Assembly: GCA_914767715.1 (NCBI GenBank)
Contig: OU612066.1
Location: forward strand, 15,939,001 to 16,003,000
DNA length: 64,000 bases
DNA from: Membranipora membranacea
Lineage: Eukaryota > Bryozoa > Gymnolaemata > Cheilostomatida > Membraniporidae
Direction of reading: 5' to 3'
The notes under the pieces were generated by a model that was not told where the DNA came from, did no database searches, and saw only the letters and a list, made by a program, of their open reading frames with translations. Below are positions 14,396 through 41,146 of the stretch, piece after piece. The first letter of the stretch is position 1. Each line of letters begins with the position of its first letter. A program made the translations under genes and the position numbers.

Positions 14396-14414
14396 TCACA
14401 TGTGGCGCACAGAG
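14249..14414. repeat. 83-bp tandem duplication at the 3' end of TBCEL-like gene b
   Basis: The string ccagcggtgctttcaggatc occurs at 14249 and again at 14332, followed by related sequence. The second unit runs through the stop codon of copy b, so the first looks like a duplicated 3' end. Confidence 0.7.
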
Positions 14415-17400: not shown

Positions 17401-19920
17401 GATGATATGGCTCCAATCGCTGAGCTTATTACTGGTCAATTGAAGTAGTCTGAGAGAGGGATATGCAGATATATCAAGTAGTATGTCTTCATATGAGTTT
17501 CCGCTCACATACAGCTCTTCGAGGCTAAAACCAAAATTCATGCAAAAAGGTTAAAACCAGCACATTATTGTCAAAACCATGTAAGAACAAGCACATCCAC
17601 CAAGCACAGCAAATACTGGTTATCATAAAATGAAGTTAGTAGATCAAGCTTAATAAAAACTGACCAACAAAACTGTAGGCATGATAAAAAGTAACTCAAC
17701 TATTCTTTTTAAATAAACAGCGTCCCAAAACTTATGGTCCTCTCACAGATTAGTGGAATAGCGTTTTAATAGCACAAACGGGTATACAACAATCCTATCC
17801 AGAAACAGCCTAAGGAATTGAAAATTTAGGGGTCAAACATTTTCCTAACTTCTTTTGGCTTGCAATCTGATTTGACTCAATTTTTCGTTGGCAAACGGTT
17901 GACAAAATTCTAGGAATTTTCTCAAGAAAATTGGCCAATACAGAGATGACCACGTTTTCTGGCACTCTAAAAGTATTTGCTACTGCTTTTTTTGATAAGT
18001 TCTTCGGTTACCTTGGGAAAATGACTAGAAGGCATGACAAAGTACTCCATGATAAGTTTGTAAAATTTAGAGCGAGTTTGGTCAGCTTAGGGTACAGCTT
18101 GTCAGCAGGTAGCTCTGTCAGTTGAGACAGAGGATTGCGTGAGAGGTTTAGAAATGTTAGCAGAGGTATCCCATCTAATATAGCAAAGACCTGCAATACG
18201 GCAACAAGATATATGAGCGACACAGACTATGCTCCCATACGTCGTTGTGACGGCTGTTTTAGGGCTAATCGATACATGGGAATAGCATTTAGGTTAACTT
18301 CCGTATGCATTGGTAAATTCGAATCGGAGAACTGCATTGATCGGCATTGAATCAGAACGGCGACGTAGATGAATGGACTTGTTACAGTACCAGATTGAAA
18401 CATGCATAGAAAAACAGCACCAACAATAACTCAGAAATGTGCGGAGAAACACAAATAAAATCATGGCTAATATATCCCTTTAAGGTTAGGATAGTATATT
18501 GATGCGAGAAATATGACATAGACATATTAAACTATTACATATTACATGCTTAGAAAAATTGCACCAACGATAACCGAGAAATGTGTGGTGAAATGCCAAT
18601 AAAATAATGGAGAATCTATTCCCTTCAGGGTAAGATAATATAATGCTTGCTTGAAGAGCTAGGTGGCAAATGAATTTTGGATATCCTACCTGATTCCAGT
18701 CTGATAATTTATTATTGATGAGATCGAGCTCTCTGACTTTTGAGCAGTGATCAGCGAGCTCAGAGGCGTCACCAGCGTGTGTGATATCATAGGCCTCAAG
18801 AGCTAAGTTCTCTGGAACTCTGAACCCTCCATCTAAAGGAATAAACATTGAATGTAAAGAAGTCAAAAATACTCAGTCAGATTTGAACTCCTAAGCTTGT
18901 GTTTAAGCTAACGCTTACCCTAAGAACATATATATCAACAGTGCTCCAAATCACACACACACATCAATTATAAAGCACAAACTGTAAGTAACGTTATTCC
19001 TTCTACTGCGGGTAGCAAAGCACCAAATTTCAAGTGAACCATCAAGTTTCATGTATGCAAAGCAAAAAGAAAAAAACAACAGGTATGGGTTTCAGAAATA
19101 TGACTTATTACCTCTGTTAGTCAGTGCCCTATGAGAAGTTAGGACATACATTTTTCCTCTCAATGCTATACAATTGCCAAAAATTAATGAACCATTGTTT
19201 TTTGCAGCTCATGATGCACGCGTCCAGAAATTTCACCCACGCTTTTGCATAATTTTGTTTTCTGCATCATCTATAATTATGATGTGATATTATGCCATAA
19301 TACATAATTTAAGATATTGTGGATGCATAATATTCGTGATATCACTACATACATGAAATTGGTAGAACTTCAAAGACCTTGGTAACAAAAAATGGTATTT
19401 TATTGCCACTTCAGAAAAAAAAAAACCACTCTAGTTTGAGGATAAAAGAATGCCTAACCTGATTTTCCAGGAGCACCAGCTGGAACATAGATTTCACAGT
19501 AGTTGATAGTTTCTCTGTCTCCGGTATCGTTGTACTTGTCATTCAGAGCAGTGATAAGCGTCTTTTCTGCAAATAAAAATACGAGTGGTCAATAAGCCTA
19601 ATGAAGGTTGTAAGAGAGAATAGTATAGAGTATAAATTGCCTTGGCCTCTAACTTATTGCAATGAATAGACAATCAACACAGCGTTACATATAGCTTAAC
19701 AACCAGATGAGTACATGATTGGTTATAAGAAAATGTCAAAGAAAAACATTTAGGAGGCTTATGGTCTGCATAACAAAATTTTATTTATTTGGTATTAAGA
19801 CTTTGTCTTGGTCACTATATTATACAGAGAAGACTGATGTCAACTTGTCATCAGATCTCAGCGCAGGAGAGATTATTACCACTACACAGTGAACTTACCG
19901 ATTGAGGATGATGCTGCCAT
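14396..19920 (-). CDS. TBCEL: Tubulin-folding cofactor E-like protein, copy b
   Basis: Tandem paralogue of copy a. Coding exons (minus): 19920-19899, 19566-19459, 18832-18690, 18190-18012, 17524-17334, 17026-16878, 16517-16363, 15976-15837, 14619-14396; total 436 aa. Every intron has the same phase and alignment position as in copy a. The start is the ATG at 19920 (MAASSSIEKTLITALNDKY), close to the usual short N-terminus, whereas copy a carries a longer charged leader. LRR landmarks: VRELDLINNKLSDWNQ, LTFLNLSRNPL, LEELYVSGN, LRLLQLTSNKLSDW, IRLAGIPLVE. LPHLTRLNG marks the cap. The ubiquitin-like domain covers about 340-415 (QSVGQFRRSLKQFVG). The C-terminus ends SVRHM and lacks the Ser/Pro tail of copy a. 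Divergence is widespread with no breaks, so both copies look functional. Confidence 0.9.
14779..14826. repeat. short MITE (cctgtcttga...tcaagacagg)
   Basis: Inverse-complementary ends cctgtcttgaaaaactttg and aagcttgtcaagacagg. Third member of the family at 3209 and 29463; located in an intron of TBCEL-like gene b. Confidence 0.6.
15458..15491. repeat. perfect 34-bp palindrome
   Basis: Arms of 16 bp (cgcacgaaagtagaat) around a 2-bp centre, in an intron of TBCEL-like gene b. Possibly the remnant of a foldback element. Confidence 0.8.
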
Positions 19921-22423
19921 TGCTGTAGAATCAGATTCTTAACTTTATAACGTAGCAGAAATCCTCACAAATATGGCTACAACGAGAGAAATCAGAAAAA
20001 TCTTTGAGGAGTTAAATTTGATGGGCAAAAGTAGTAGGTATCATCGGGCCCACCACAAACTGTACCAGTAATCTCACCACAACAGGAACTGGACCGGCAA
20101 AATGAGAAAATAGTTATTTTTCAATCTGTAACCTAGGTCTCAGATGATGGCCACTGCAATAAATGTACCATGTACTGTATCATCATGGACCTGTTTGCAC
20201 TTCGTAAGCATGAATTTTGAATATGGCAACAACCTGGACTTAGACAAAACACTTCAGATGCATGCAAGCAGGGACAATGTATGGTCTCCTTGACTTGCAA
20301 GTGGACCAGGCCGAAATGTTATGTTACTGTTGGTGCCTGTCCTAGGGTAAACTGTGGAACTGCAATGGCAATGGCTTCCTTTATCATTTAAACATGTTGT
20401 TCCTAGCGGGCTAGGCCTATCTTATCTATGCAAATGATATGTTTTAAAAATGTGTATCATTGTGCTGATACACAGTCACAGTGCAGCACAATGATAGTTG
20501 ATACAAATATTTTGCATAGTAGGCCTAAGAGATGACAATTTTTGCAACACATCATACATCTGCTGCAAACTAATAATATGGGATACTCCACTGCACACAC
20601 CATCAATCTAATAATAACCAAACCTAACCTTGTTCATACATTATTTTTAACTGTCACAGTGTCTGTTGTGAAACTCACCAGCTCCTGCCCTTGGACTTGG
20701 TATGATGATGTTGTTATGTTACACCAATGCTTTTATGGTAGAATAAGGTTTAATGCATCATCATGACTCAGTCAGTTCATGCAGTATAGGCAGCCAACTC
20801 ACTCAATGAGTCATCATTGGAATGGAATGTTATAGAATTATCTGTGTTTGATGAGAACAAGGGCATGGTGAGAAGGTGTGTGTTTCCATCTTAAAAAATT
20901 CCCACTTTTTCACTTTGCTCAGAAAGAAATTTAGCTGATAATCCACTAAAATATTTGCATTGCAGCACGGCTGACGCAGTTAATTATCCACATTTCAAAC
21001 ATAGCCCTAAATGTCTGAGAAGACAACGTTGATATGTTTTAATGATGGGCATTTACAAAACAATAAAGTTCTTTGCTTGACATAGAATATATCAAATCAG
21101 GTCCACTTGTTAATGGTTGGCCAGGTCACCAATGACTTGGCTTACATTGAAGAACCTGCTCTCAGTCTACGACTCTGTCAATGAAATGATACATTCAGCC
21201 TTAGTGATTAGTTGGTGATAGAGAGGTGTTGGGATTGTACAACTAGGCACCCGCTAACCACACCATATAAGGGAGGCTGCCTGGTTTACCTCTGGAAATA
21301 GTATTTTTGGCACAAACATAGTGTCATTCCTATTATTTTTGAGTTACCACTAGGAGGATTTGGACTCTTCTCGAAAGTTATTCAAGAATATTGTTATGTC
21401 TAACTGTGATGAACTGCAATTTTTTTTCATCCTAAAGACTAAGATTATGTCATCATGGACCATTTTTTGGCTGTTATATTTCACAACTTTGAGTAAGAAT
21501 TTTTGATCTACAATTTTTGACGGGTTGTACCCCATACGGCTTTTCACTCAAAATTATCATATCCCAGTGCATGCACAGCCTGACATCCTGTATCCATTCA
21601 CAATGCTACACTACAAGAGCGGAATTTAACCATGTTTTTTTGCTACAGTCATGCCAATCTGCATCACAATCAGCTTACTAATTACTGATATTTTGTTGTA
21701 AGACATGTCCCATACAGTACCTGCCACATATCTTATAACATGTGACGCCAGCAACGGCTTTTAGTGCCCTTTTAGAACGGTATAATTAGTTGTTATGACT
21801 GATAGTCTGAGACAATAGAGTTGAAGTGTCAATTTCATGCAACTGCAAAACCACTAGGGGCAATATTTCTCTCTACATTACGCAAAATCCACCATGATCT
21901 CTTGTTCGTAAGATTGAAAACTTTATAATCATGCATATGAAATCATCCAAGAAAAGCATGCAGCTAAACAGAATTTCCGACTGACGTGACATAGTAAGAT
22001 ACCCACAGAGCCTTCAAAAATAAATGCTACACTACTCAATGCTGGATTTGACTTAGATGCGATGTTTCTCTAAAGCTGACACTTTGACCATAAATGGTCC
22101 TCACATCTATCAAAAGGAATTTCAGGAAAGCTCACCTTTGGAGTTAACTTCTTTGGTGAATGGTGTGACTAGTCGTGTAATCTTGCAATCATTTTATCAG
22201 CTAATATTATACCCACAGCAATTGTTATTTTAATTTGGAGATAAGAAGGTGATAATACAGTGAACAGTTTATAGTTTCATCGAACCGAAATGCTGATGTA
22301 CCATTGCAGCTAGGTAGCCAGGGATAGCCACAGATACAGTCTATGACAAACTTAACTGGAGTTGTAGCAATTTTTTTATTGACGGATTATAATTTGACCA
22401 AAGCTTTTGTCAAGAGAGCCACT
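19921..22423. other. divergent intergenic region: 5' of TBCEL-b and 5' of receptor A
   Basis: TBCEL-b is transcribed leftward and receptor A rightward, so both promoters should lie here. From about 20849 the sequence is a close copy of 33872-35404 upstream of receptor B, including cacggctgacgcagttaatt and the stretch around gagttaccactaggaggatt. No clear TATA box was seen. In the other copy a 104-codon frame lies at 34359-34673; here small deletions disrupt it. Confidence 0.6.
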
Positions 22424-24880
22424 ATGTGTATGAACTTGGCCTGGACTCTTCTTTTCATTAGTCACTGGGCAATTGGTGGGTATTTTATTGTTATACAAGC
22501 GTCCTTGTGTTCATGCTGTTTGTCTGCCTCAGATGCGCATACCAAAATATTGAAACCATTCCTCTTTTATTTTCTTCGTTTGTAGTTAAAGTGTATTCAA
22601 AGGGTTTTGTTCAAACCGATAACAACAAAGGTCGTAGATAACATTACAGACTAACCGAATATGTTGATGCCTTCATTATATGTTGTACTTTTTAACATCT
22701 TCTAGAGACTGCCTGGTCGGAAGACATTCCTGTTACATTCTATGGATTTGATGCTCCTGCTGATGCAGAGACTATAGTCTTCAATGGAGGTTGTGATGGT
22801 GATTTTCGACACAACTTATCCAAAGCCAGTGCGAAGGATGACAGAAGCTGGGTCATGAAGTTCAATCTGCCAGATCAGTGTGACCCCAGCGGTCTAATTA
22901 GGTTCAAATGGTCTACTGAAGCACCAATAAAGTGGGAGCCCCTGGGGTCAGAACTCAATCGTGAGATTGCCACACATTTGCTCAGGGAAGGAATCACTGC
23001 CGGATATACTATTTTCGGTCACAAACCAGGTATATCTGCAGATCAATCTTATAGCTTTCCAAGCAAAGATGTTTTTACGGTAATCAATTCAGCGTTTTAC
23101 CTCCAAAAGAGCTGTCCTGATGCCTTTACTACATTATATATGGAATTAGCAGTTTCTTAGTGCTTGTCAAAGTTATGAAAATTCTTGATTCAACCCCCTA
23201 GAAATGGCACCTTAACTTAGTGCTGTATTTTAATTTGATGAATTTTGTATTTATAATAATATATTTATATCTATATTTGCGTAAACTTATGTTATATGCT
23301 GTTTTTACAGTGACAATGAGACTCCCACTACAAGTACAGTTTGTGCTGGATTTATCTAGATATCCCTCTGATGACTTCTACACGGTATGCGGAAAATGTG
23401 TGAGAGATTCTCCTGATCCTCAGAGAGAAATCTGGAGATGTGAGGAAGGAGAGAGGGCAGGCAAGAACGGCAAAGTGGTGATACTCTACAATCTCTACAA
23501 GGAATGTAACTTTCACTGGAAATGGAGAAATCTCAATCAGACGAGCAATGGTGGATACGAGCCACCAAACAACGGACATGATGATAATGACAATTACAGG
23601 ATATCTGCAGCTGGTGATGGTGTATGCTCTGAGAAAGGGTATATCAAAACAGTTACGGCAGAATGGGGTGAAATGTTTACAAAAGCAATCTCTAAGAATA
23701 TCAATGGTGAATGCTCATCTCGGATTGTCCAAGGAACATCAGCAACCTTGAGGAAGGAGGCACTGCTAGCTCGAACACCAATAGAAAACCCACAGCTAAC
23801 TCAACATGCAGTAATGCACAAAAGGGATATGACTAGCACTTCATTTCAGAAATCCAGGATTATAATGTCAACAACTGAATCCAACAACATTAAAGGTATC
23901 ACCATAGGAAACTATGATCAATCTTAACTGGTCCTAATTATTCTCATTGTGAAGTTGAATTTTTCTTGATCTGAAAATGTTGAAAAGTAATATGATTGTA
24001 CGAAATGTTTTCCTGATTCTTAAAGTACCATGGAATGTAAATGGGAAATGATGGTCAAATGTTTTATCATATATATAAATCTATCTATACTAAATAAATA
24101 GTACTACTGTAAAAGTGTCCATTACCTTTGTAGAGATCACATTTATTGGATACGGTGCACCAGCAAACCATAGTGTCATGTACCTGAATGGACACTGTGT
24201 AACTGAGTCGAGATTGTTCACACGTAACATCTCACAAGCACCAATAAAACAGGATGGTACCTGGTCGCTGAGTGTCAAACTTCCACTGCCTTGCAGGCTC
24301 TCATGGAAATGGAGAGCAGATGGAAATTGGGAAAATATAGGTGAAAAAGGAAATCAGGGCAACAGAGAAACATTTCTGAACCGCAGCACAACAATCCACT
24401 CCGTTTTCATTCAAGACTATGAGTCGGAAGTCAAAGGTAAGTCTGTCTTTTCATGTTGAACATCAATTTCCCAAGCATTAGTATTTAGCGATGTTGGTGG
24501 AAGGCAGGAGTCCACATGCATCACAGTTATAGGTTCAAAATTGTAACATACTTTTGCGAAAGTTACCTCAAATTCTGTGTGTTTTGATAGAGGAATCTTT
24601 GTATTGTGTGAGATTATTTTAGGCCAACCGCCACAGAGATGAGAGATATCTTGTGTAGTAGGATGGGGTAGCAAAAAAATATAACTTATTGATTAAATAT
24701 ATTTTCAGCAAATTTTGTCACCTTTTTGTGTTGCATCGTATTTTAAAAACAGGCATATCTCTACATTTTGCAGCGATGGTAGAGCAGCCTGTAATCTTTG
24801 TGTTGAAAGGAGAATTCCCTAGTTAGGATGGCATGCTCGCAGATCACTATAGTGTCTGCGGTCGATGTGATAGAATAAAG
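20849..24880 (+). repeat. segmental duplication, copy 1 (upstream DNA plus receptor exons 1-5)
   Basis: Collinear with 33872-38233 in exons, introns and upstream DNA. The left boundary is at tgatgagaacaaggg in both. The right boundary is within a B exon at ataaag. Exon 4 differs by only a few bases in 303. Copy 2 carries a 357-bp element that is absent here. Confidence 0.9.
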
Positions 24881-27800
24881 GGTATTGAGTTGAAGAATAT
24901 TTATATCTATATATGCGTAAACTTATGTTATATACTGTGTTTACAGTGACAATGAGACTCCCACTACAAGTACAGTTTGTGCTTGATTTATCTAGATATC
25001 CCTCTGATGACTTCTACACGGTATGCGGGAATTGTGTGGGAGACTCTCCTGATCCTCAGAGAGAAATCTGGAGATGTGAGGAAGGAGAGAGGGCAGGCAA
25101 GAACGGCAAAGTGGTGATACTCTACAATCTCCTTAAGAACTGCAACTTTCATTGGAAATGGCGAAATCTTAATCAGAGTGACGCTGGTGGATACGAGCCT
25201 CCTAACCCTGGCCATGACGACAATGACAAAGACAATGACAGGATTGTTCATGTTGGTGATGGAGTGTGCCCTAAGTCAGGGCATATCAAACAAATCAAGA
25301 CTGTTATGACAACATGGGGTGAAATGCTCACAAGCCAGGGTTCAAGAGAAAGCAATGTTTCTTGTCTTCAGATGATTTCCCGAGTTTCCACGCTGTTACC
25401 ACTACTTCAAAGCTCAACATCTCCAACACCTATAGCAAACCAGCAGTCAAGAGAGAATCTGTATGTACAGAAAAGTGATATCACACGCACGATCTCAAGT
25501 ACACAGGCTATAGATGGCAGCGATTTGACAGGTATCAATTCTCAGGTTTTAATCCAACTCAATGTAAAATCAAGAGAGTCCGACATCTAACCCTTCCTTC
25601 TTTATAGAATTGTTTGGAGGGGATTGAGAGTGGCCTTTGGAAGAGTTTTTTAAATTGCTCGTAATGGTGATGTTGTACTTCACTTAAACCACTGCTGACA
25701 CAGCTGGGCTTTGCCCAGCAGTGCCACCAGTCAAAAATTTAAATAGAGAGTTGTGGCATCAAAACATCTAACCAGTAGCTTTGAATGGAGTTATATGAGG
25801 TCTCAAAATGTAAGGAGTATCTTCTTCCCCAGCCATCCACCATGAGTGATGACATATGTTGAGGTTGACCAATCAGGTTGGATCTCAGCTAGATTTTAAA
25901 GGCACCTGATTGGTCAACCTCAACATATGTCATCACTAATGGTGGATGGCTGGGGAAGAAGATACTCCTCATATTTTGAGAGCTCATATATCTCCATTCA
26001 AAGCTACTGGCTAGATGTTTTGATGCCACAACTCTCTATTTAAATTTTTGACTGGTGGCTATGCTGGGCAAAGCCCATCTGTGGCAGCAGTGGTTTAATG
26101 TTTTCTTATAAGCAGCGATTTGCCAGAAATGCTGCCAGGAAATTGAATAATCAATCATGATACCGTTGTTGGACAAGTGGCTCAAGTTTTTTGTGGAACT
26201 CCTTTCCTCAATAGCTGAATGCTTGTTTGATATGGGTAGAGATGTTCATTTGATGGAAATTGATAGCTAGTAAGCATTTTTGATTTTGTTTTTGTTATTT
26301 CATCTGAAGCCATCCACTGCTGCATTTGACAAACATCCTCCACCAAATCGATTTTATGTTGTAGAAATAAGATTTATTGGCTATGGTGCTCCGAGCGGCA
26401 AATCTATCATGTACCTGAACGGTGGCTGTGTAGGTAATGAATTCAAACCTGAAATTTCGCAGGCATCAATTAATCCAGATGGTACCTGGTCTCTGAGTGC
26501 CTCTTTTTCGCTACCATGCCATCTGATGTGGAAGTGGAAGGCTGATGATAAATGGGAATATATCGTAGAACTAGCGGGTGTAAGAAATACAGCTCTCTCA
26601 GGAAGGGAAGTCGTTCACACAGTCTTCAGAAATGATCCCAACAACCCATCAAAAGGCAAGTACCAAGAAGTTTGGCTTTGTGGTAAAGTAGTGGGGTCTG
26701 TATCAAATCTTCGGAAATGTCAGCGCAGTGTAGACTTTGCATAATCAGTCCAATATATGTAAACTTTCCAAATTTTCCCAGGCATTAGCTTACTTGTTGT
26801 TGAGCAGTGTAACAATGCACTAACTAGCGAGTCAAATATAATAGGGCTAGGAGGTTTTTGAATAGTGAATGTAGGTGGCTGAAATATTATCTCCATGATA
26901 TCTCTAACATAGCACCTAAACCCAAATAAAATGTAAAACTTCTGCTTAAATCACAACAATTTGTGATTTCTGGCAATTACTATGCATGCAGTACGAATCC
27001 ATAACACAGATCACACTAGAAAAACATTTTGCTAATCGACTCAACTATGATCCTAGGAAGATTGATAGGTATATTGTTGCAATGCCCTTCAAATTTGCAA
27101 TTGGTTGATACCTTAACAATGGATAGTGTGCGTGGAGGAATTTGCACTTTCTCAATGAAGAAACCATGTAAATGCCTGGACTACTCTTCATGTTGTATGT
27201 GGAGAAATGAGGTCTCAATATGATTATCAAACCCAAATTTCCTAAATTCAAAACTGTCTTCTGATAATTCATAACAAGTTTTGCAGGGAAAAGATCTATT
27301 TGACTGACGTGATTAAAAGATTCAATAACACTGTTGATCGATGGATCCAGATAGCCTTGCCATAATGCATTCTCTCTTCTTGTGGGTCAAAAATGAGTAA
27401 AAAAAATTGCCTAATGTATGTGAAAAACCCAAATGATCGCATAGATTTATTAGCAACTGATTTAAATCAATAAATGTACTAAAGATCAATTAAACTGACA
27501 TAATTATGAAGAGGATGTAATAGAACAGTGTTATTACAATTTTAGTACTGATTGAGCTGCCCGCTATGTTCACTCTGACAAAACAACCAAAAGAAGATTT
27601 GAATGACTCCTACAGTGTTTGTGGACGATGCAATGGAATAAACGAACTCTTCCCATTTGGAGTGTGGAAATGTTCTGAGCCTGCAAAGATTGTTGGTGCT
27701 GAAGTAACTATTGTAGTAAATATATATGCTCACTGTAACTTTGTTTGGAAATGGAGAAACTTAAACCATTCCGTATCATCTGGTAAAGGTTACGGGTTTA

Positions 27801-30190
27801 ATCAGCCTCAGGATACCAGAAAATTCAATATCGGAGGAGGCTGCGGGGAAAAGGCGATTAGCCATGTGCAAGCTGAATGGAACAAGCAAGGTGAAAAAAT
27901 AAATTGCGTGCCCCTTCCTATGGTAACAGTACAATCAACCCCAGAAAGTCCTCTACAGACAACAAGCGAAGATAGATCAAGATCTACCGCGCACTTGTAT
28001 CCAACCACCGACAATCATTTCACTGCAAAGATGAGTTCAGATTTGGCGCATACTGCCTCTAGTATCTCTACACCGACATCAGCAGCTACGGATATAAATT
28101 ATTCTGAAACTATAGACTCAACTTCGGCCATCACAACTTTAGAAGGAACATCTACCAGAAATACTACTCTCTCAAGAAGCGAAGTGATTCACACAGTCTT
28201 TGGGCATGATTCCAACAACCCACCAAAAGGCAAGTACTAAGAAGTTTGGCTTGCTGGTAAGATAATGGGGTCTATATCAAACCTTTGGAAGCGTCAGTGC
28301 AGTGCAGACTTTGCATAATAAGTTCAATACATGCAAACTATTATCCTTGCCAACCCAAACCAAACTTTCCAAATTTTCCCGGGCATTAACTTTTTTGTTG
28401 TTGAGCGGTGTAACCTTTTTCTAACCAGTGCGTCAAAAATATCAGAACTAGGCAACATTTAAAAAGTGAATATTGGTGGTTGAAGTATAATCTCCATGAT
28501 ACGTCTAACATAGCACCAAAACGCAAAAAAAAGGTTTGTTGAAACTCGAATGCATACATTTTGATATACCAATAGGGTGTGTTCTTAGCAATTATCCTGC
28601 AATGCATCTCCAACCTGGATATTCTGAGAGATCAGAGTTTGGCACCCCTTCAACAGTATCGCATTCAGGGATACTCATTGACACATCTTGTTTCATTTGT
28701 CATAGAGGATGATGTCTCGATTGGCGACTGCTTCTTGTAAATGGGAGAAAATGGCTTCCAATTTGTATCTTACATTCAGGGTGAATACATATTTATCTCC
28801 CCGTTTTATGATAGCTCTGCTATTTATTTAATGCATTATTATGATAAACATTGCATTTTGAAGCTTCTTTTCTTCATGATTTTAGACAGAGGTTTAGTTA
28901 TTGTGAGCTCAATCCTTGGAGTAGTCTGTGTTGCCCTGATATGCGGCTTTGTTACAGTGATGGTGAAAATTCGCAGATTGACAAGTCAGGTCAAAAGGTA
29001 GGTATTGTGTCATTGCCAGAAGGTCTCAATGAACCAAAGAGACTGCATTTGCATTTTAGTCTTTATAACTTAAAGCAGATCATTCACCTCACAGCAATAA
29101 ATGAATCATCGTCTGGTTGTGAACACAGATTGCTTTTCCGCAGCTACTTGATAGGGCAATGGTGAAATACTTCTATAACCTGTCAGATTTCAAATTTCAA
29201 ATGTGACTACCCATATTTGTTTGACAAGGTAAGTAAAATCAGCCCAGAAAATCAGTGAAGATTATTGTGTTTTATGATACAGATTGAATGAAAGACCAAT
29301 ACAGAGTCACCTTAAGGGGACTAGCAGCAATGGCAGTGACCCAGATAGCGGTGAGTCTCGAATACCCCAACAAATTCTTCTTTTTCGAAACACTTTGGTT
29401 GAAGCTTTTACTTAGAAGGTATTACACTGAGATGATACCATAATTATACCATGGGCAGATGTAGCCTGTCTTGACAAGCTTTGTTCGGTGAAGAGGGTGG
29501 GGTTCCAAGGAAGACAACTCCACCTTTCTTATACAAGTTGATCAGTAATATTATGGAGTTATTTACCCGATCAATCCTCTTCTCGCTTTTGAGCTCGCAA
29601 GTGATGACAAGCTTTGTTCCCCCACCACCACACAAAGTTTGTCAAGACAAGTTAAGGCAGATGCAATGACACTGTTTCTAAAACAATGAGGGGAGCAGAA
29701 AATACGTTGTTCTCAATTAAATCTAACTTGCAGGTAATAAATTTTCATCCTCTTCCCAAGCTGTCTAGAACCTGCAAACGTTGTAGGCCTACATTTTTCC
29801 ATTTTAGTGAATGACCACGGAGCTATAAGATAATGTATTTATGAAATACCTTTGTTGTGAATCAAAGACCTAGGCCTATTCATCTTATTCATAAGATTTG
29901 TTGAATAAATAGTATTATTGTCACTTCGTTCTTTATTTCCAGGAAAGCCAGATCCTGGTCAATATGAGGAGGCGAGAGAAGGTAACTCTGCAGGAATTAT
30001 CACATTCACAGAGTCTGCTAACGATGTGATAAGTTCTGGTGAATACCAAAACACCAGCAGTAAATCGGCTGAAGTAGGGGCTGATTACATTGAGATACTT
30101 CCTGCTCTTCCTGCGTCAGGGTATGAAATGGTTATTATGAGTGGACAATCTACAGATCAGCAGCATATGTACTCTCAGCTTAACAACTGA
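22424..30190 (+). CDS. receptor A: multi-module type I membrane protein with tyrosine-rich tail, unnamed family
   Basis: Exons: 22424-22475 (signal peptide, MCMNLAWTLLFISHWAIG), 22706-23029 (A1), 23311-23895 (B1), 24134-24436 (A2), 24947-25531 (B1-like), 26365-26655 (A3), 27546-28229 (B3 plus stalk), 28886-28997 (membrane helix, about GLVIVSSILGVVCVALIC, then basic KIRR), 29283-29350, 29943-30190 (tail). Phases join throughout, giving 1083 aa if the broken exon at 24774-24882 is skipped. A modules have two cysteines, a W and a WE/NR pattern (FKWSTEAPIKWEPLG, WKWKADDKWEYIVE) like CBM20. B modules have six cysteines: VCGxC, WxC, CNFxWKWRN, GxC and a late C. The stalk is Ser/Thr-rich. The tail has EYQN, DYIEI, GYEMV and MYSQL. 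Introns after 26655 and 28229 use GC donors (aaag|gcaagta). The gene model is strong; ligand and function are unknown. Confidence 0.75.
22706..23029 (+). other. A1 module exon (CBM20-like signature)
   Basis: Phase 1-1 exon of 108 codons. It reads PVTFYGFDAPADAETIVFNG with a cysteine two residues on, then DDRSWVMKFNLPDQC, then FKWSTEAPIKWEPLGSELNR. The arrangement F..G..P / V.FNG / W / LP / [FY]KW / WE / NR matches the order of conserved positions in carbohydrate-binding module family 20. The resemblance is from motif memory and is not a search result. The counterpart in receptor B is 36039-36362. Confidence 0.55.
24774..24882 (+). pseudogene. truncated, stop-containing B exon (recombination scar)
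   Basis: It has an intact acceptor and reads AMVEQPVIFVLKGEFPS, then TAG at 24824-24826 where receptor B has TAT (Tyr). About 50 bp later, after VCGRCDRIK, the exon stops matching receptor B at ataaag and runs into intron sequence preceding another B1-type exon. The remaining B2 and stalk sequence is missing here. Skipping it keeps phase, since the flanking exons are both phase 1. Confidence 0.85.
25684..26098. repeat. 415-bp palindromic element flanked by TTAA
   Basis: Two approximately 195-bp arms, nearly identical when inverted, flank a 27-bp loop (25878-25904). Both ends read ttaaaccactgctg in inverse orientation, so TTAA could be target-site or terminal sequence. It lies in an intron of receptor A between the second B exon and A3. 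Confidence 0.85.
29463..29657. repeat. MITE, cctgtcttgacaagctttg family
   Basis: Left end gcctgtcttgacaagctttg and right end caaagtttgtcaagacaagt are inverse complements. A third internal match (gacaagctttgttcccc) suggests a nested or compound copy. In the last intron of receptor A. Confidence 0.65.
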
Positions 30191-30796
30191 ATAATATAAT
30201 ATGAAACTAGCTGTAAAGGATATAAAATAGTTGATGAAACAAATATTTTAATTCAATAGTTTGTCTATTAGCAAGTTTAGAATTTTTAAGTTCCTTTTGA
30301 TGAGTTATGTAAGTACCTGATAACCAATACATTAATGTGCAATTTTATATTATGATGTTTTACCACATTTAGCTGTTATTTCTTATTTACTTGAGATTAT
30401 TATAGTTTTTCATATTTTAGAGTTTTAGATTTTACATATTCAAATGTTTGATTTAGATTTCCATTTCAATTTCAACATTCAACATTCAACATTTCAACGT
30501 TCAATGGTTACTCATCTAAGTTATCAAGCGAAGCTGAAAAGAAATAATAGAAAGATCAATCAATGCCGCACATCTGGAGGACAAAACAGTTAGGATGTTG
30601 AAAGATCTCTATCTTAGGAGTAACAATAGTTTCACCTGAATGGAATGTTGAGAACTCTCTAGAAATATGGCAAGACCATTGTAAGCAGTAACTAAGAATA
30701 TGTTGCAATAATGTCAACATTTAAACGAACCTATTAGTTCGATTAGGAAACGATACCTGCTGTGACCAATGAACTGCCTCTCCTCATTGCTGTGAC

Positions 30797-30805
30797 TATA
30801 TAAAG
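30797..30805 (+). promoter_or_regulatory. candidate TATA box TATATAAAG in left arm of inverted repeat
   Basis: TATATAAAG is followed about 20 bp later by an ATG. The mirror copy is at 33086-33094 on the minus strand. Its conservation in both arms suggests that the ancestral unit was transcribed. Confidence 0.4.
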
Positions 30806-30909
30806 AGCTGCAGAGACACTAAACATGAGCTCATTTTGGAACAGCCTTGAAGGTTGTGTTATGTGCAATTTACTTGGATTAATTTTTATGGAATAATTAT
30901 AATTAAATT

Positions 30910-31054
30910 AATGTCTACTCTACATCAAGAACTCAGTGAAATTACTGAATTACTCAGAAACATACATATTGAATTCCGGCCGAAGGGAGCGAGCAGCTTT
31001 CCGTCAGAAAAATTGACGAGGGAAGTTTATCACAATTGTGAAAACTCTTATTGA
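30910..31054 (+). other. small frame conserved in both arms of the inverted repeat
   Basis: From ATG 30910 the frame reads MSTLHQELSEITELLRNIHI and continues to stop after NCENSY. The right arm (minus, about 32980-32865) has MYIPHQELGEIIELLRNIHI and the same continuation up to a possible donor (ag|gtaagt). The left arm has lost this GT. Unknown protein; could be a remnant exon of the duplicated unit. Confidence 0.25.
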
Positions 31055-33871
31055 TACAATATACAATATTCAAGGTTGAAATTTGTTTGATAAAATAATT
31101 ATTATACAGCTCCAGTTCAAGGCAAAGGTAAGTCCTTGGTTATATCGACTGATCATCGGTTATAATTTTGTTGAAGCTCCATCGTTATTGGCGAGTCTGC
31201 CATTTGTAATTTCCTGCAGAGGATCAAGTGAATCTTGTGTCTTATTAAAGGTGAAGTTGTCACCTCATACATTGAGTCGTCCTGGCGAGCAATTAGTCAG
31301 AGTATACCGGTTATTTTATTACTAATCGCGCTACATTTTGACTAAATCCAATATTTTACAACTGCAGTCATATTTATCCTTATTACCTATAATTATATTT
31401 TAATATTGAACTTTAGACGGTAATTTTACTTTCAGAGTACGGGCAACCACTTGTTCGCGACTCAACTTCATGTTTAGGCCGAACTTTGCGGAATCACACA
31501 TAATCAAGTTAATGATTGCTTAGGTGGATTTCAGAGGTCCATAAAGTTAAGAGTGCTAACCATTACACATTATATAATAACACCATTACACATTACACCA
31601 TTACACAAAATAGAACCAAAATTTACCTTGTGTCAAACCAATCAAAGCGATAATTATAGTATTAATATTTGAATTAAAAATTTATATACAAAACACAAGA
31701 AGTGTGCAGGACGGGATCTTACACTTCTGTGATTAATACTAAAATTACGGGAGTGTGCGTTATTCGTCCCTCACAGTTATGAAGGATAACTTTGACACAA
31801 TAAGATATTTTACCAAGTTTTCTTTTTAATGCTGAACAAGATCCCGGAAACAAAATGAGATGTTTCATTCTGTGAATGCTAATCTAATAAATCACAGTAT
31901 TGAAACCTTATTAGCTACCACAGAGCAATCCAGGAGTTGTGCAAACATTGAAACAGATAAAGCAACTACTTGATTGCTTACAAATTCACTCTCTTGGACA
32001 ACGAAGCTTTATGTGCAACTGATAACTGGTAACTTGATAAGGTTGGTTGGTTAACTAGTTGTAGGTTTGCATGATGTCAGCTAGCAGTAGTTGAGCTAGC
32101 TTAGTGTGAGGGACGAATAACGCACACTCCCGCAACTTTAATATTAAATACAGGAGTGTAAGGTCCCGTCCTGCACACTTCTTGTGTTTGTTATATAAAT
32201 TTCTAATTCAAATGTCAATACTATATTTATCGCCTTGATTGGTTTGACACAAGGTAAAGTTTGGTTCTATTTTGTGAAATGGTGTATACATGTGTAATGG
32301 TGTAATTATATAATGTGTAATGGTTAGCACTCTCAACTTTATAGACCTCTGAAATCCACCTAAGCAAAAAGCAATCACTAACTTGATTATGTGTGCCTTA
32401 CAATGGTGAGGCTTAAAAAATGTAATTGAGTCTCGCACATGTGGTTGCCCGTTCTATGAAAGTAAAACAACCTTCTAAAATTAGGTGTGAAATATAACTA
32501 TGGGTAATAAGGATTAATATGACTGCAGTTATGAAATGTTGGATTAAATCAGAAGGTAGCGCAACTAGTAATAAAATAACCGGTATACTCTGGTAAATGC
32601 TCACCAGGACAAATCAATGTATGAAGTGACAACTTCTCCTTCAATAAGACCAGATTCACTTGATCCTCGGCAGGAAATAACAAATGGCAGACTCGCCAAT
32701 AACAATGGAGCTTCAACAAAATTATAACCGATGATCAGTCGATATAACCAAGGACTTACCTTTGCCTTGAACTGGAGCTTCATAATAATTACTTTATCAA
32801 ACAAATTTCAACCTTGAATATTGCCACGCAATATTAATAAGAGTTTTCACAATTGTGATAAACTTACCTAGTCAAATTCTTTGACGGGAAGCTGCACGCT
32901 CTCTTCGGCTGGAATTCAATATGTATGTTTCTGAGTAATTCAATAATCTCACCAAGTTCTTGATGTGGAATATACATTTATTTAATTATAATCATTCAAA
33001 AAATTAAATCTAAGAAAATTGCACATAACACAACCTTCGTCAAGGCTGTTCCAAAAATGATCTCATGCTTAGTGTCTCTGCAGCTCTTTATATAGTCACA
33101 GCAATGAGGAGAGGGAGTTCATCGGTCACAGCAGGTATCGTTCCTAATCCTAATAGGTCGCTTAGATGCCGACATTATTGCAACATATTCTTTGTTACCG
33201 CTTACAATGGTCTTGCCATCTTTCTAGAGAGTTCTCAAACATTCATATTCAGGTGAAACTTTTGTTACTCCTAAGATAGAGATCTTTCAACATCCAAAAT
33301 CCAACATCCAACATCCAACATCCAACATAACTGTTTTGTCATCCAGATGTGCGGCATTGATTGATCTTTCTATTATTTCTTTTCAGCTTCGCTTGATTAC
33401 TGGTATGAGTAACCATTAAAATGAAATGAAAAATCCAAAGTCCAAATCAAGCACTTGAATATCTAAAATATAAAACTCAAAAATATAAAAATATAAAATA
33501 ATCTCATCAAGTTAATTAGAAAAGTAAGTCATTATCAGCTAAAAGTAGTAAAACATCAAAATATAAAAATTAATATTAATGTATTAGTTATCACGTACTT
33601 ACATTAGTTGGAAGCTTGTACAAGTAAAGAGGATTTGTAAATGCTAGCGGGCAGTGATTTATTTTAATTCAAGCATGGCGAAAAAGGCAAACCTTTCCTC
33701 CTGTTTAACTTTACTCCTCAGGGCCATTGGTTAGGAAAAAATGGTAGGGGAGGCAGAAATCCTTGAGGGTACGAAGTAAAGGGTATTATAAGCTCCTCCA
33801 CCCCGACCCACTGACAAAAATCACAGGCTATATCAAAGTCACGTGGCCTTATGAGTTAAACTAACTCCTTG

Positions 33872-36800
33872 ATGAGAACAAGGGCATAGTGAGAAGGTGT
33901 GTGTTTCCATCTTCAAAAATTCCCACTTTTTCACTTTGCTCTGAAAGAATTTTAGCTTATAATCCACTAGTATATTTGCATTGCAGCACGGCTGACTCAG
34001 TTAATTATCCACATTTCAAACATAACCCTAAATGTCTGAGAAGACAACTTTGATATGTTTTAATGATGGGCATTTACAAAACAATAAAGTTCTTTGCTTG
34101 ACATAGAATATATAAAATCAGGTCCACTTGTTAATGGTTGGCCAGGTCACCAATGACTTGGCTTACATTGAAGGACCTACTCTCAGTCTACGTCTCAGTC
34201 AATGAAATGATACATTCAGCCTTAGTGATTAGTTGGTGATAGAGAGGTGTTGGGATCGTAAAACTAGGTACCCGCTAACCACACCATATAAGGGAGGCTG
34301 CCTGGTTTACCTCTAGAAATAGTATTTTTGGCACAAACATAGTGTCATTCCTATTATTTTGGAGTTACCACTAGGAGGATTTGGACTCTTCTTGAAAATT
34401 ATTCAAGAAATACAACTCTGTCATGTTGTTATGTCTAACTGTGATGAACTGCAATTTTTTTTCTCAACCTCAAGACTAAGATTATGTCATCATGGACCTT
34501 TTTTGGCTGTTATATTTCACAACTTTGAGCAAGAAATTTATATCTACAATTTTAAACTGGTTGTACCTCATACTGGAGAATGGCTTTTCACTCAAAATTA
34601 TGATATCCCAGTGCATGCACAGCCTGACATCCTGTATCCACTCACAATTCTACACTACAAGAGCGGAATTTAACCACCTTTTTTGATTGCTACAGTCACA
34701 CCAATCTGAATCACGATCAGCTCACAACTAATTACTGACGTCATGTTAGCGACTGTAGTCTGATTCTCAGAGTCAGTAGTGTTGATGTCTAAGTTCATGC
34801 AAGCGCAAAAAACATGAGTGGTGATATTTCTATCTACATAAAGTAAAAAAAAAAATCAACCATGATCTCCTGTTCTAAAGATTGAAAATTGTGTATATTA
34901 AGCATTGTACTGTTGATAGCATATAACCCAAAAAAAGCATAGAGCCAAACAGGATTTCAGACTGTCAAAAAGTAAGTTACCCACAAAGTCATCGATGCTG
35001 GACTGGCCAATGATGAGTTTGATATAGATGCAATGCTTCTCTGAAGCTGAAGGTTATACCATAAATGGGTCACACATCTATCACAAAACATTTCAGAGTA
35101 GCTCTCCTTTGGAATTATCTTCTTTGAAGAATGGTATGACTGGTCGTGTAATCTTGCAATCATTATATCAGCTTATGTTATACCACCAACCATTGTTATT
35201 TTAATTTAGAGATAAGATTGTGAATAAATCAGTGAGCAGTTTATAGCCTCTTCTAACCAAAAATTTGATCATCATCATGTATCATTGCAGTTAGGTAACC
35301 AGGGATGGTCACTGAAACGGTCTATGACAAACTTAACTAGAGTAGTAGCAATTTTATAATTAACAGAATTTATTTTGACCATAGCTTTTGACAACTGAGC
35401 CACTATGGAGTTGAACTTGGCTTGGACTTTTCTTTTCATGAGTCACTGGGCTATTGGTAAGCATTTTATTGTATTTTAAGCATCTTTGTGTTCATGCAGC
35501 TTTATCACTATGTTCCCAAGGTTCGATTTTGTAAGGATTTCGGGAGTAATCGCCCCATGGAAATGGCATTAAAATCAAATTCCGATTGTGACGAATGACT
35601 TTTTGGACGCGAATATTCATACCGTGTTTATTCGACCTATATTCTAATTGGCGGCGTGGCTGAATGGTTAGTGCGCTTGCACACAATGCCTTCAAAGAGA
35701 TTACACGCGATAGGCCGGCCGATAGGCACGCTATAGGTTCAAGACGCGCGGGGCGGCAGATTATATACATGTTTTTCCCATCATGGGAATGGTTAGAATC
35801 CTCTAGATTCTAACCATTCGAAATTGGAGAGAACCACAAAATCGAAGCATGGGACCATAGTGTATGTCACACAGCAGATATGCAAAATGTTGATACCTCT
35901 TTTTTTTTCTTCATTTTGTCAGTTTAACTGTGTATACAAAGGGTTTTATTCATACTATTATAATCAAAGGTCTCAGTATACAGACTAACCAAATATGTTG
36001 ATACCTCATTATATTTTGTTTTTTTTAACACTTTGTAGAGGCTGCCTGGCCAGCAGACGTACCTGTTACATTCTATGGATTTCATGCTCCTGCTGATGCA
36101 GAGACTATTGTCTTCAATGGAGGTTGTGCCGGCGATTTTCGACACAATTTATCCAAATCCAAAGTGAAGGATGACAGAAGCTGGGTCATGAAGCTCAATC
36201 TACCAGATGAGTGTGACAACAGTGGTCTTATCAGGTTCAAATGGTCTACTGAAGCACCAATAAAGTGGGAGCCCCTGGGGCCAGAAATCAATCGTGAGAT
36301 TGCCACACATTTGCTCAGGGAAGGAAACACTGCCGGATATACTATTTTCGGTCACAAACCAGGTATATCTGCAGATCAATATTATAGCTTTCCAAGCATA
36401 GATGTTTTTACGGCAATCAATTCAGCATTTCACCTCCAAAAGAGCTGTCCTGATGCCTTTACTACAGTATATATGGAATTAGCAGTTTCTTAGTGCCTGT
36501 CAAAGTTGTGAAAATTCTTGATTCAACCCCCTAGAAATGGCACCTTAACTTAGTGCTGTATTTTAATTTGATGAATTTTGTATTTATAAAGAGTATTGAG
36601 TTGAAGAATATTTATATCTATATTTGCGTAAACTTATGTTATATGCTGTGTTTACAGTGACAATGAGACTCCCACTACAAGTACAGTTTGTGCTGGATTT
36701 ATCTAGATATCCCTCTGATGACTTCTACACGGTATGCGGGAAATGTGAAGGAGATTCTCCTGATCCTCAGAGAGAAATCTGGAGATGTGAGGAAGGAGAG

Positions 36801-38233
36801 AGGGCAGGCAAGAACGGCAAAGTGGTGATACTCTACAATCTCCTTAAGAACTGCAACTTTCATTGGAAATGGAGAAATCTCAATCAGACGAGCAATGGTG
36901 GATACGAGCCACCAAACAACGGATATGATGATAATGACAAAGACAATGACAGGATATCTGCAGCTGGGGATGGTGTATGCTCTGAGAAAGGGTATGTCAA
37001 AACAGTTACGGCAGAATGGGGTGAAATGTTTACAAAAGCAATCTCTAAGAATAACAATGGTGAATGCTCATCTCGGATTGTCCAAGGAACATCAGCAACC
37101 TTGAGGAAGGAGGCACTGCTAGCTCGAACACCAATAGAAAACCCACAGCTAACTCAACATGCAGTAATGCACAAAAGGGATATGACTAGCACTTCATTTC
37201 GGACGTCCGGGATTATAATGTCAACAACTGAATCCAACAACCTTAAAGGTATCACCACAGAAAACTATGATAAATCTTAACTGGTCCTAATTATTCTCAT
37301 TGTGAAGTTGAATTTTTCTTGATCTGAAAATGATGAAAAGTAATATGATTTTACGAAATGTTTTCCTGATTCTTAAAGTACCATGGAATGTAGATGGGAA
37401 ATAATGGTCAAATGTTTAATCATATATATAAATCTATCTATACTAAATAAATAGTACTACTGTAAAAGTGTCCATTACCTTTGTAGAGATCACATTTATT
37501 GGATACGGTGCACCAGCAAACCATAGTGTCATGTACCTGAATGGACACTGTGTAACTGGGTCGAAAAAGTTCACACATAACATCTCACAAGCACCAATAA
37601 AACAGGATGGTACCTGGTCGCTGAGTGTCCAACTTCCACTGCCTTGCAGGCTCTCATGGAAATGGAGAGCAGATGGAAAGTGGGAAAAGATAGGTGATAA
37701 AGGAAATCAGGGCAACAGAGAAACATTTCTGAACCGCAGCACAACAATCCACTCCGTTTTCATTCAAGAATATAAGTCGAAAGTCGAAGGTAAGTCTGTC
37801 TTTTCATGTTGAACATCAATTTCCCAAGTATCAGTATTTAGCGATGTTGGTGGAAGGCAGGAGTCCACATGCATCACAGTTATAGGTTAAATTGTAACAT
37901 ACTTTTGCGAAAGTTACCTCAGATTCTGTGTGTTTTGATAGAGGAATCTTTGTATTGTGTGAGATTATTTTAGGTGAACCGCCACAGAGATGAGAGATAT
38001 CTTGTGTAGTAGGATGGGGTAGCAAAAAAATATGATTTATTGATTAATTACATTTTCAGCAAATTTTGTCACCTTTTTGTGTTGCATCGTATTTTAAAAA
38101 CAGGCATATCTTTACATTTTGCAGCGATGGTAGAGCAGCCTGTAATCTTTGTGTTGAAAGGAGAATTTCCTAGTTATGATGGCATGCTCGCAGATCACTA
38201 TAGTGTCTGCGGTCGATGTGATAGAATAAAGGA
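33872..38233 (+). repeat. segmental duplication, copy 2 (upstream DNA plus receptor B exons 1-5)
   Basis: Partner of 20849-24880. The extra length is mainly the 357-bp element at 35506-35862. Exon order, intron positions and most intron sequence are preserved. Confidence 0.9.
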
Positions 38234-41146
38234 AGAATATCCATTATCAAACTGGACCTGCTCAGACCCCGCTTTGAGAGAAGGGGATGAGGTGACCGTT
38301 AAGACTGAAATTTATGCTCATTGCGATTTTGAATGGAAGTGGAGAAACAGAAACTATGATAATAACAGTTCTGATCCATACTTTTGTGGCTATGAATTAG
38401 CAGAAACAGATAAAAACCGTAAACTTCTTATTGATGATGGTTGTGGCCCTGATAAAGTAACTAAATTGGTTGTACAATGGAACATTTCTGACTGGACCAC
38501 GAAGCAAGGAAAATGTATAGACAAGCCTGCAAGTCACTTTCCTCATACAACCTTACCAGAATCTTCTCTCACTGATTTCATCACAGATACAACAGAGATA
38601 GCCACAACACGGGTCACGACGTCAGGTTCTCCTATATTATCTAGCCTGCTGATGACACCTACCATATTGGATACCAAAACATCCGAAAAGGCCAAAACTA
38701 TGGACTCTATTGAAACTACCCAAAATCCCCCCTTACCACCATCAACCACACAGAGTATAAATGTAACTCAACACTCATCGTCAGGAATTACATCCGCTGC
38801 AACCATATCTTCGCCAAATACTGTAGAGCAGACCCAATCCTTTTCTTCCTCCACAACTTTTCTGCCATCTACCACAGCAAAAGATTCACAGGGTATCGCA
38901 AGCACTCAAGTACACCCCAACTCAACTGACATCCAAAACGTAACAGCTGCTGATTACCAAACTCAAACCAGTTCTAATAAGGTAACAACTGAACCTTCAC
39001 AGAACAAGACCTCCATCATCCTGAGTACCCAGGCCACAAATACTTCAGCCAATAAATCCTTAGCAGCAATAGGTAAGTTCAATTCTGAATTGCCCATACT
39101 GAATCGAACTTAAAGTGTTGTTCCGATCTTACTGCATTATTTATTTAGACAGTCACTGTACTAGTGGAACTGGAAAATTTTACTGTTGTTGATCTGTTAG
39201 CTCTAGGCAAATTAGTACAATCTTCCAGCGGTTGGACAAAATGTATTATTGTATTACATGGGGAATTCGCTCAACAATTAATTATCTATCTGATTTTATT
39301 TATAGGAAAGGCAAATGGAAACAACAATAACACCAAGAAAACTACTAAGAAGTCAAAGAATGTGCTGACCCAAGGTATTACATGGGAAATTACGATTCAA
39401 AGAGCAGTGATAGTTAAATGTGTTGGGATGTGACTGAAGACAATATTGGCCATAGTTTGCTTACTCACTCATAGGCAATTTCAAATGGCATTCACTTCAC
39501 TGATTCATAATTTACCCTAGGGCAAGAGGATTTAATATTGATTTAGTTTCGTTTGGCTATCTTGTGGGTGATTTATCATTAGCTATCAGCAATTTTGGCT
39601 AACTAAGGTGGGAGCTTATGAGATGGAGTAAACTTTAGCTAGCAATAAATCTCGCTAGTTCAAGCATGAGCTGAAAACAAATGAAAACTTTTCCTTCTAC
39701 AATGGCTTAAGTCCTTTAGGATAGGGTAGGATTCTGATCTAATACCATTATGGACATTCTTTGATTGTAGAGCAGATAATTATCATATCAGTGTGTGTTT
39801 CGCTCGCAGTTGTGCTGACAGTAGGTGCTATAGTACACTGGCAAGTTATGCAGTAAGTTGTCAGAGATCTATAAGAAATTTTTAAAAATTGTTAAATTCA
39901 ACTTTGAAAATTGCAACCATGATTGACTGCCGACGTATTTATTATTCTGCTACGGAATGACTCACTAATACTAAGGGTATTCTCATGAATTGGAATGTCT
40001 TGACAATGATGAAATCACTGCCCATGCACCAAACAACTGCTGTCAAAACCTTCATTCTTACTGATTATATGTTCCAAATTTGTTTTCAGGAAGAAAAAGA
40101 AACCGGCTACTGGACATTCTCTGGAAGACTTGGATCCATACATTTCATACATATCAACAGGCGGAGACGGTAACCACACCCCTTATCTATCACAAAGGCA
40201 CACAGTGGAGACAATTGGGCTTGATGACATAGCCTTTGAACCAAATCAGCTATATGAATCAAGCGGAGACCTGGCAGAAGATGGTACCAATTTGGATGAA
40301 GGGATTTACTCGTTGGCAGGTAGTAATACGATGTATCATTCATCTGTGATGCTTGTATTGATGGGCACAGTGGATCAGTATCAATCAGCCAAACAAACAA
40401 TTAACCACATAATTTAGGGTTGAAAACTGGGTTTTAGTAGGTTATTCTGTCTAAGTTCCACAAACATTAGTTTTTCGAACTAACCATTACACAATATTCT
40501 ACATAGAGGTTAACACTATTCATATGTTCAAATGGTTCAGATGAGGTATCCGCCACGCCACCGCAACAAAACAGTGCGATAGGAGGTGTGATGGATGAGA
40601 ATGAGTACATGGTTCCCCCAGAGCCAGTCGCGGTGACCCCCTCAGAGTATATGGTGCCGCCAGCACCGGTTGAAGTACCACCACCAGTACCGAACACTTC
40701 TGGACTTCAGTCAAGAGCAAACCCGCTATATGAGGATAGCATGCCTAGAAAGGTCGGTCACAAATAAGCTGATATATTCTAACCTACAGATATATGTACT
40801 TCACTGATACTGGCCCTTTAGTGAATTAAAAAATTTAAACAAAATAATAAACTGTGTTATTTATGTCACTTTGCGGAATTAAGACCTTGGGAATTGTGAT
40901 AAACGCAGGTGTAAAAGAAACAGAAACATTAAAAAATAGTATTTGGAGGACATTAAACTCTTGAAACATAATAAAAAAATACACTGAACTAGACCTTGAA
41001 TATAATAACATCATAAAATTTCCACCGAAAATAATTGATATTAATTCTATTGAGGTATTCTGAATGAAATATATTGTGTTATTCTTATATTGCAGAATGG
41101 AGGCAAACCCTCTATAAGAATTGTCTACTCCGAAGTGCGAAAGTGA
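35405..41146 (+). CDS. receptor B: four-module type I membrane protein with tyrosine-motif tail, unnamed family
   Basis: Exons: 35405-35456 (signal peptide, MELNLAWTFLFMSHWAIG), 36039-36362 (A1), 36658-37248 (B1), 37487-37789 (A2), 38125-39072 (B2 plus stalk), 39306-39374 (Lys/Asn-rich juxtamembrane), 39771-39852 (membrane helix, SVCVSLAVVLTVGAIVHW), 40090-40319, 40541-40752, 41096-41146 (tail). All junctions join in phase, giving 953 aa. Cysteine pattern and WKW motifs are as in receptor A. The stalk is long, Ser/Thr/Pro-rich, with several NxS/T sites (NVT, NST, NKT, NTS), so it is probably heavily glycosylated. The tail has KKKK after the membrane, PYISYI, QLYESSGDL, GIYSLA, EYMVPP twice, a proline-rich PAPVEVPPPVP, NPLYEDSMP and a C-terminal IVYSEV. 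These are typical SH2, SH3 and PTB ligand shapes. It shares the duplicated 5' half with receptor A but has a different tail. Ligand unknown. Confidence 0.8.
35506..35862. mobile_element. 357-bp non-autonomous element with CACTA-type ends and tRNA-like core
   Basis: The ends cactatgttcccaaggttcg and, on the other strand, cactatggtcccatgcttcg form inverted repeats of about 27 bp with the cgattttgt that follows. TAT flanks both sides (35503-35505, 35863-35865) as a candidate 3-bp target duplication. It is missing from the paralogous intron of receptor A. The core has pol III-like boxes: tggctgaatggttag near 35657 and gttcaagac near 35737. Confidence 0.7.

Follow-up and report, generated by a model that had tools for sequence, protein, structure and literature searches.

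We describe a pair of neighboring genes, here called A and B, in a window of 64,000 nucleotides from the bryozoan Membranipora membranacea (contig OU612066.1; C2:15939001-16003000 in a genome of 339,339,785 bases and 18 contigs). Each gene is predicted to give an open single-pass receptor after splicing, in which two versions of a cysteine-bearing module (module A and module B) alternate on a Ser/Thr-rich stalk, followed by one membrane helix and a cytoplasmic tail. The two receptors share a nearly identical front and carry unrelated tails. Our best explanation, to which as a whole we give about even chances, is that they are paralogous receptors of a small animal gene family, in which arrays of CBM20-like A and B modules recognize glycan and two different tails signal through phosphotyrosine.

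Two Modular Receptor Genes

The gene models were drawn by hand from the sequence, and the exon joins were then checked by script. Gene A (22424-30190) has ten exons, 1083 codons and the module order A-B-A-B-A-B; gene B (35405-40767) has nine exons, 941 codons and the order A-B-A-B. All module exons have entry phase 1, and the introns are GT-AG in 15 of 17 cases and GC-AG in the other two. In a six-frame translation of the window, hidden Markov models (HMMs) built from the modules recover five modules of each version, all at E 3e-43 or better, as well as a stray A-module end within the B3 exon of gene A. Each gene has one strong membrane helix (best 19-residue Kyte-Doolittle value 2.8 in A and 2.9 in B), and the stalks of both contain 36% Ser plus Thr. 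A weak point of the models is the putative signal peptides, which are only mildly hydrophobic. With open spliced frames, HMM-detected modules and hydrophobic helices, the analysis bears out a preliminary description, made from the sequence, of two adjacent modular receptor genes with these module orders, a stalk and one helix. The features are as follows:

22424..22475, +, gene A exon 1, putative signal peptide (gene model; hydrophobicity 0.99)
22706..23029, +, gene A module A1, CBM20-like (gene model, HMM)
23311..23895, +, gene A module B1 with linker (gene model, HMM)
24134..24436, +, gene A module A2 (gene model, HMM)
24774..24882, +, dead B-module piece with in-frame stop, in a gene A intron (HMM match 24827-24946)
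24947..25531, +, gene A module B2 with linker (gene model, HMM)
26365..26655, +, gene A module A3, GC donor (gene model, HMM)
27546..28229, +, gene A module B3 and Ser/Thr stalk, stray A-module C-terminus at its end, GC donor (gene model, HMM)
28886..28997, +, gene A transmembrane exon (gene model, hydrophobicity; gene C counterpart 89% identical)
29283..29350, +, gene A cytoplasmic exon (gene model, gene C comparison)
29943..30190, +, gene A cytoplasmic tail with YEEA, YQNT, YIEI, YEMV, YSQL (gene model; all five Tyr kept in gene C)
35405..35456, +, gene B exon 1, putative signal peptide (gene model; hydrophobicity 0.85)
36039..36362, +, gene B module A1 (gene model, HMM)
36658..37248, +, gene B module B1 with linker (gene model, HMM; structure model)
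37487..37789, +, gene B module A2 (gene model; structure model, CBM20 fold)
38125..39072, +, gene B module B2 and mucin-like stalk (gene model, HMM)
39306..39374, +, gene B juxtamembrane exon, Asn/Lys-rich (gene model)
39771..39852, +, gene B transmembrane exon (gene model, hydrophobicity)
40090..40319, +, gene B cytoplasmic exon, five Tyr (gene model)
40541..40767, +, gene B tail exon with EYMVPP twice and NPLYED; stop 40765-40767, or donor 40752 (gene model)
41096..41146, +, gene B optional last exon (open frame, splice sites)

The preliminary description ended the pair at 41146, which is the stop of the optional gene B exon. An alternative donor at 40752 (7 of 9 consensus places) would join this exon to the gene, lengthen the protein to 953 amino acids and close the tail with IVYSEVRK; the support consists of the splice sites and the open frame. 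IVYSEV fits the pattern of an immunoreceptor tyrosine-based inhibitory motif. Two other elements lie in the introns. A foldback element with a 91% inverted repeat occupies 25684-26098 in gene A, and a tRNA-like sequence, perhaps a short interspersed element, was seen by eye at 35640-35745 in the first intron of gene B; the latter has no match in Rfam or ARAGORN.

CBM20-Like Module A and the Related Module B

By its structure model, module A is CBM20-like, below the level of filed CBM20 membership. The model of the gene B A2 module (predicted local distance difference test score, pLDDT, 87) has a CBM20-type beta-sandwich fold, which points to glycan recognition. Module A has one conserved Cys pair and module B five conserved Cys. 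The preliminary description named two kinds of cysteine module; the analysis shows these to be remote homologs rather than unrelated types. A CBM20-like beta-sandwich may be the fold of module B as well.

Compared with a mixed set of CBM20 sequences (24 bacterial and six others), the A profile scores 29.8 (E 7.6e-5), a value that none of 200 shuffles reaches. This mixed profile is shaped by our choice of sequences; leave-outs score from 21.8 to 31.7, with 26.7 when both sequences from the same genome are removed and 21.8 when the same-genome C1 sequence alone is removed; the bacterial sequences by themselves give 16.8.

In the alignment to the bacterial profile, which is not significant, the first contact Trp of CBM20 corresponds to Phe29 of module A, the Lys to Lys59 and the Trp-Glu pair to Trp66-Glu67; in module B, the mixed-profile alignment pairs both the Trp and the Lys of CBM20. 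Among 20 A modules these columns hold Phe in 16, Lys/Arg in 19, Trp in 17 and Glu in 19; among 23 B modules they hold Trp in 22, Lys in 21, Tyr/Phe in 19 and Glu in 19. In STBD1 the contact Trp W293, matching laforin W32, is important for binding (PMC4076837).

A Shared Front, Separate Tails and Recombination

A B-module query of the whole genome gives 11 matches: five in the window, five in a second cluster at C2:16.621-16.642 Mb and one at C2:25.34 Mb. An A2-module query gives 11 rows at the same places, together with two weak rows. The second cluster lies on the opposite strand and holds three genes. Gene C has A1, B1, a frame-broken A module, B3, and membrane and tail exons resembling those of gene A; gene D combines a broken A1 with B1, a membrane exon and a tail that is split; gene E contains a single A module and two B modules. 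A single module of each version is present in the gene at C2:25.34 Mb (HMM E 4e-8 for A and 6e-11 for B). A locus at C1:7.789 Mb matches at E 0.059 only; we tentatively count it as a distant member because its open frames encode, besides two WKW modules and a membrane helix (2.75), an extended Ser/Thr stalk and a tail containing NPLYASMREEDEY.

Gene A at 22558-24881 is 93.8% identical in DNA to gene B at 35893-38232, introns included. The identity ends inside the dead B-module piece of the gene A intron, which is a copy of the start of the last B module of gene B and has a recombination joint at its 3' edge. Beyond it gene A follows gene C (24891-25683, 81.0%; 26098-26788, 79.9%; 27417-29448, 87.5%; 29885-30308, 88.3%), whereas identity to gene C over the front reaches only 78.6%. 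Recombination has joined, in gene A, a B-type front to a receptor type like gene C, which lies 0.64 Mb away. The core of the B2 exon of gene A (24875-25333) is closer to B1 of gene B (88.0%) than to gene C, so that gene A is a mosaic and not the product of one clean joint. The preliminary description spoke of rapid duplication; a recent duplication, with mosaic formation of gene A, is what these identities uphold.

Downstream of 26558 in gene A, DNA comparison of the two genes finds no gene B match of at least 60 bases, and the two tails have no significant similarity (best E 0.97). This is the layout of paired receptors, with a near-identical ectodomain front and unrelated tails, and it suggests one ligand range with two outputs.

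Several repeats and minor matches accompany the family. A 132-base direct repeat (94%; 20848-20979 and 33869-34000) marks the edge of a tandem duplication unit of about 13 kb, and an inverted repeat of about 1.5 kb (84%; 30307-31775 and 32105-33604) lies between genes A and B. A further small repeated domain, LPAGKYxYxI...C, follows the B modules in gene E (L020/L019) and in the gene at C2:25.34 Mb (L021) and is absent from genes A and B. The genome also has a weak match on C10 (L036; E 0.046, one stop) and three ordinary CBM_20 matches (L117, L118, L119), two of them GPCPD1-like by eye.

Proposed Function and Alternatives

In the proposed mechanism, divergent CBM20-like beta-sandwich modules arranged in tandem on a mucin-like stalk would form the ectodomain. 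They would probably bind glycan, and the first candidates are alpha-glucans from food microbes or symbionts (starch or glycogen). A polysaccharide could contact several of these weak modules simultaneously and so draw receptors into clusters. Src-type kinases might then phosphorylate the tail tyrosines, and SH2 or PTB (phosphotyrosine-binding) proteins would be recruited: Grb2/Syk-type partners by tail A (YQNT, YIEI, YEMV, YSQL), and Crk/Nck, PTB or phosphatase-type partners by tail B (EYMVPP twice, NPLY, perhaps IVYSEV). These partners are assigned by what we presume the motifs to bind. We infer the ligand, the phosphorylation, the opposite outputs and the biological role of the receptors. 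The interpretation in the preliminary description is upheld in part: the architecture and a receptor-like design are supported, and the CBM20-like fold of module A turns the proposed recognition role toward glycans.

A number of results weigh against this explanation. No module of the window scores with Pfam CBM_20; among 17 members of the A family one does, at E 0.059, which is noise level (NADPH_Ox: 2 of 17, 0.058). When compared with 79 bacterial CBM20 sequences, the A profile scores 12.7, a non-significant value below the best of 60 shuffles; adding A sequences raises it to 16.9, which 7 of 150 shuffles attain. Because the bacterial profile alone is not significant, the claim of homology between module A and CBM20 rests on the fold and the mixed profile. 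In the mixed-profile alignment, moreover, the first contact Trp faces a gap, and the Phe-to-Trp pairing appears only in the non-significant one. For module B direct similarity to CBM20 is weak (its score is reached by 9 of 200 shuffles with the mixed set and 120 of 150 with the bacterial set). Structure modeling, suggested in the preliminary description, succeeded for module A and gave a poor model for module B (B1 of gene B, pLDDT 70), which ties with HGSNAT; we reject the matches to intradiol dioxygenase, transthyretin and HGSNAT as low scores on a low-confidence model. The tails had been described as rich in tyrosine motifs. By our own motif set, scored by shuffling, this is marginal for tail A (116 residues, 5 Tyr; 4 motifs versus 1.4 in shuffles, P 0.024) and absent for tail B (157 residues, 8 Tyr; 3 versus 2.9, P 0.60). 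All five tail A tyrosines are kept in gene C; at 76% identity the chance of this is about one in four.

The strongest alternative, which we consider unlikely, is that the modules keep the fold, have lost sugar binding and bind proteins, the pair serving in adhesion or in self/non-self discrimination (allorecognition). The extra disulfides would suit it, as would gene duplication, the mosaic make-up of gene A and fast module divergence: A2 of genes A and B differs by 13 nonsynonymous and 0 synonymous changes, and 7 of 12 residue differences fall within 24 residues around the predicted site (P 0.007 for a region picked after viewing). However, the aromatic, Lys and Trp/Tyr-Glu columns of site 1 are among the best kept, and the other modules compared have ratios of nonsynonymous to synonymous change (dN/dS) of 0.38-0.58: A1 0.45 and B1 0.54 for A versus B, B2 0.39 and B3 with stalk 0.58 for A versus C, and A1 0.38 for B versus C. 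Outside the modules the ratio is 0.82 for the membrane exon and 0.84 for the tail (A versus C), and 1.15 for the membrane exon of A versus D.

It is quite improbable that the pair are scavenger or feeding receptors for polysaccharide uptake, with endocytic rather than signaling tails. NPxY and Yxx-hydrophobic motifs are also endocytic signals, and NPLY occurs in tail B and in the C1 gene, with YIEI and YSQL in tail A; NPxY arises by chance in 4% of tail B shuffles and 1% of shuffles of the C1 tail piece. YQNT, the doubled EYMVPP and a proline-rich stretch suit adaptor binding better.

That the genes are partly degenerate duplicates, with A, B or both not made as modeled, is very improbable: the dead B piece, the stray A end in the B3 exon, the two GC donors and the two second-cluster relatives with broken A modules would fit, but all ten and nine exons are open with matching phases, and pooled coding changes between genes A and C are constrained (nonsynonymous below synonymous per site, odds 0.51, P 7e-5; A versus B, odds 0.70, P 0.26).

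Returning to glycan recognition, it is tempting to speculate, unlikely as we hold it to be, that the pair represents alpha-glucan pattern recognition in animals, in which recombination reshuffles paired receptors that derive from CBM20 and feed two phosphotyrosine outputs. Such a system would parallel, independently, the sensing of beta-glucans by Dectin-1. If so, an alpha-glucan-type binding fold, met elsewhere in this analysis in enzymes and glycogen proteins, would stand on the outer side of animal signaling receptors; paired-receptor logic would have arisen outside the vertebrate immune families; and there would be a direct test of how an animal without antibodies sorts food, symbionts and microbes by their storage polysaccharides.

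Comparison with Known Systems

Module A resembles the CBM20 domains of STBD1, GPCPD1, glucoamylase and CGTase in fold, profile similarity and, as aligned, the contact-site Lys and Trp-Glu. The window modules differ in their sub-cut-off Pfam score, extra disulfides and tandem extracellular arrangement on a signaling-type receptor; among known CBM20 proteins of animals, those mentioned above act as enzymes or as a glycogen adaptor.

In outline the receptors resemble Dectin-1 or paired immune receptors and are members of neither. With Dectin-1/hemITAM C-type lectin receptors they share a glucan-type head, a stalk, one helix and a YxxL/I tail; they differ in their CBM20-like head, type I orientation and five tail tyrosines. 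A C-type lectin fold was not found, the module A model being CBM20-like and the exon peptides having no Pfam match. Tail A also departs from the immunoreceptor tyrosine-based activation motif (YxxL/I-x6-12-YxxL/I), since the second half of its YIEI-x8-YEMV ends in Val. The near-identical front, unrelated tails, tandem genes and recombination resemble KIR, PIR and LILR, whereas receptors A and B lack Ig domains. Receptor tyrosine kinases share the modular ectodomain and single helix; we reject this identity because tails of 116 and 157 residues are too short for a kinase, and the last tail exons of both genes have no Pfam match. Syk-family kinases are reported from sponges (PMC9601881), which would make SH2 signaling available to a sponge.

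The claim that the proteins belong to no named family is supported: nine exon peptides match no Pfam family at E <= 10, and four have no match in NCBIfam. Full-length gene B, compared with 5.8 billion proteins, gave 7997 scored candidates, none at E <= 10. Searches of PDB sequences with single modules and profiles gave chance-level matches and no CBM20, viral contigs searched with the A and B alignments gave no relative, and a search of the open-licence PMC literature listed no paper describing such receptors with CBM20 or starch-binding modules. Relatives do exist in public DNA, as a check proposed at the outset had sought: of 437 candidates for the B profile, 12 unnamed proteins match (E 2e-40 to 2e-12), and of 88 for the A profile, likewise 12 (E 6e-25 to 2e-15); all are exon-sized and lack Pfam domains. 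The longest contig given for one B-type relative (P0010) and for one A1-type relative (P0015) is in each case 5479 bases long, a hint that the A-B order is found in other DNA too. Trees, in which many forks are weak, place the window's A modules together with outside sequences in two types, A1-like and A2/A3-like.

Neighboring Features

Elsewhere in the window, two similar gene pieces form a tandem pair on the minus strand (2780-9643 and 14396-18872), leucine-rich and tubulin-cofactor E-like by eye; the exons tried have no Pfam match. On the plus strand lie an Ets domain at 962-1351 (Pfam E 1.7e-33), which together with the exon-intron structure points to an animal genome, an amino-acid transporter piece at 55268-56101 and a galactose-3-O-sulfotransferase at 61278-62453.

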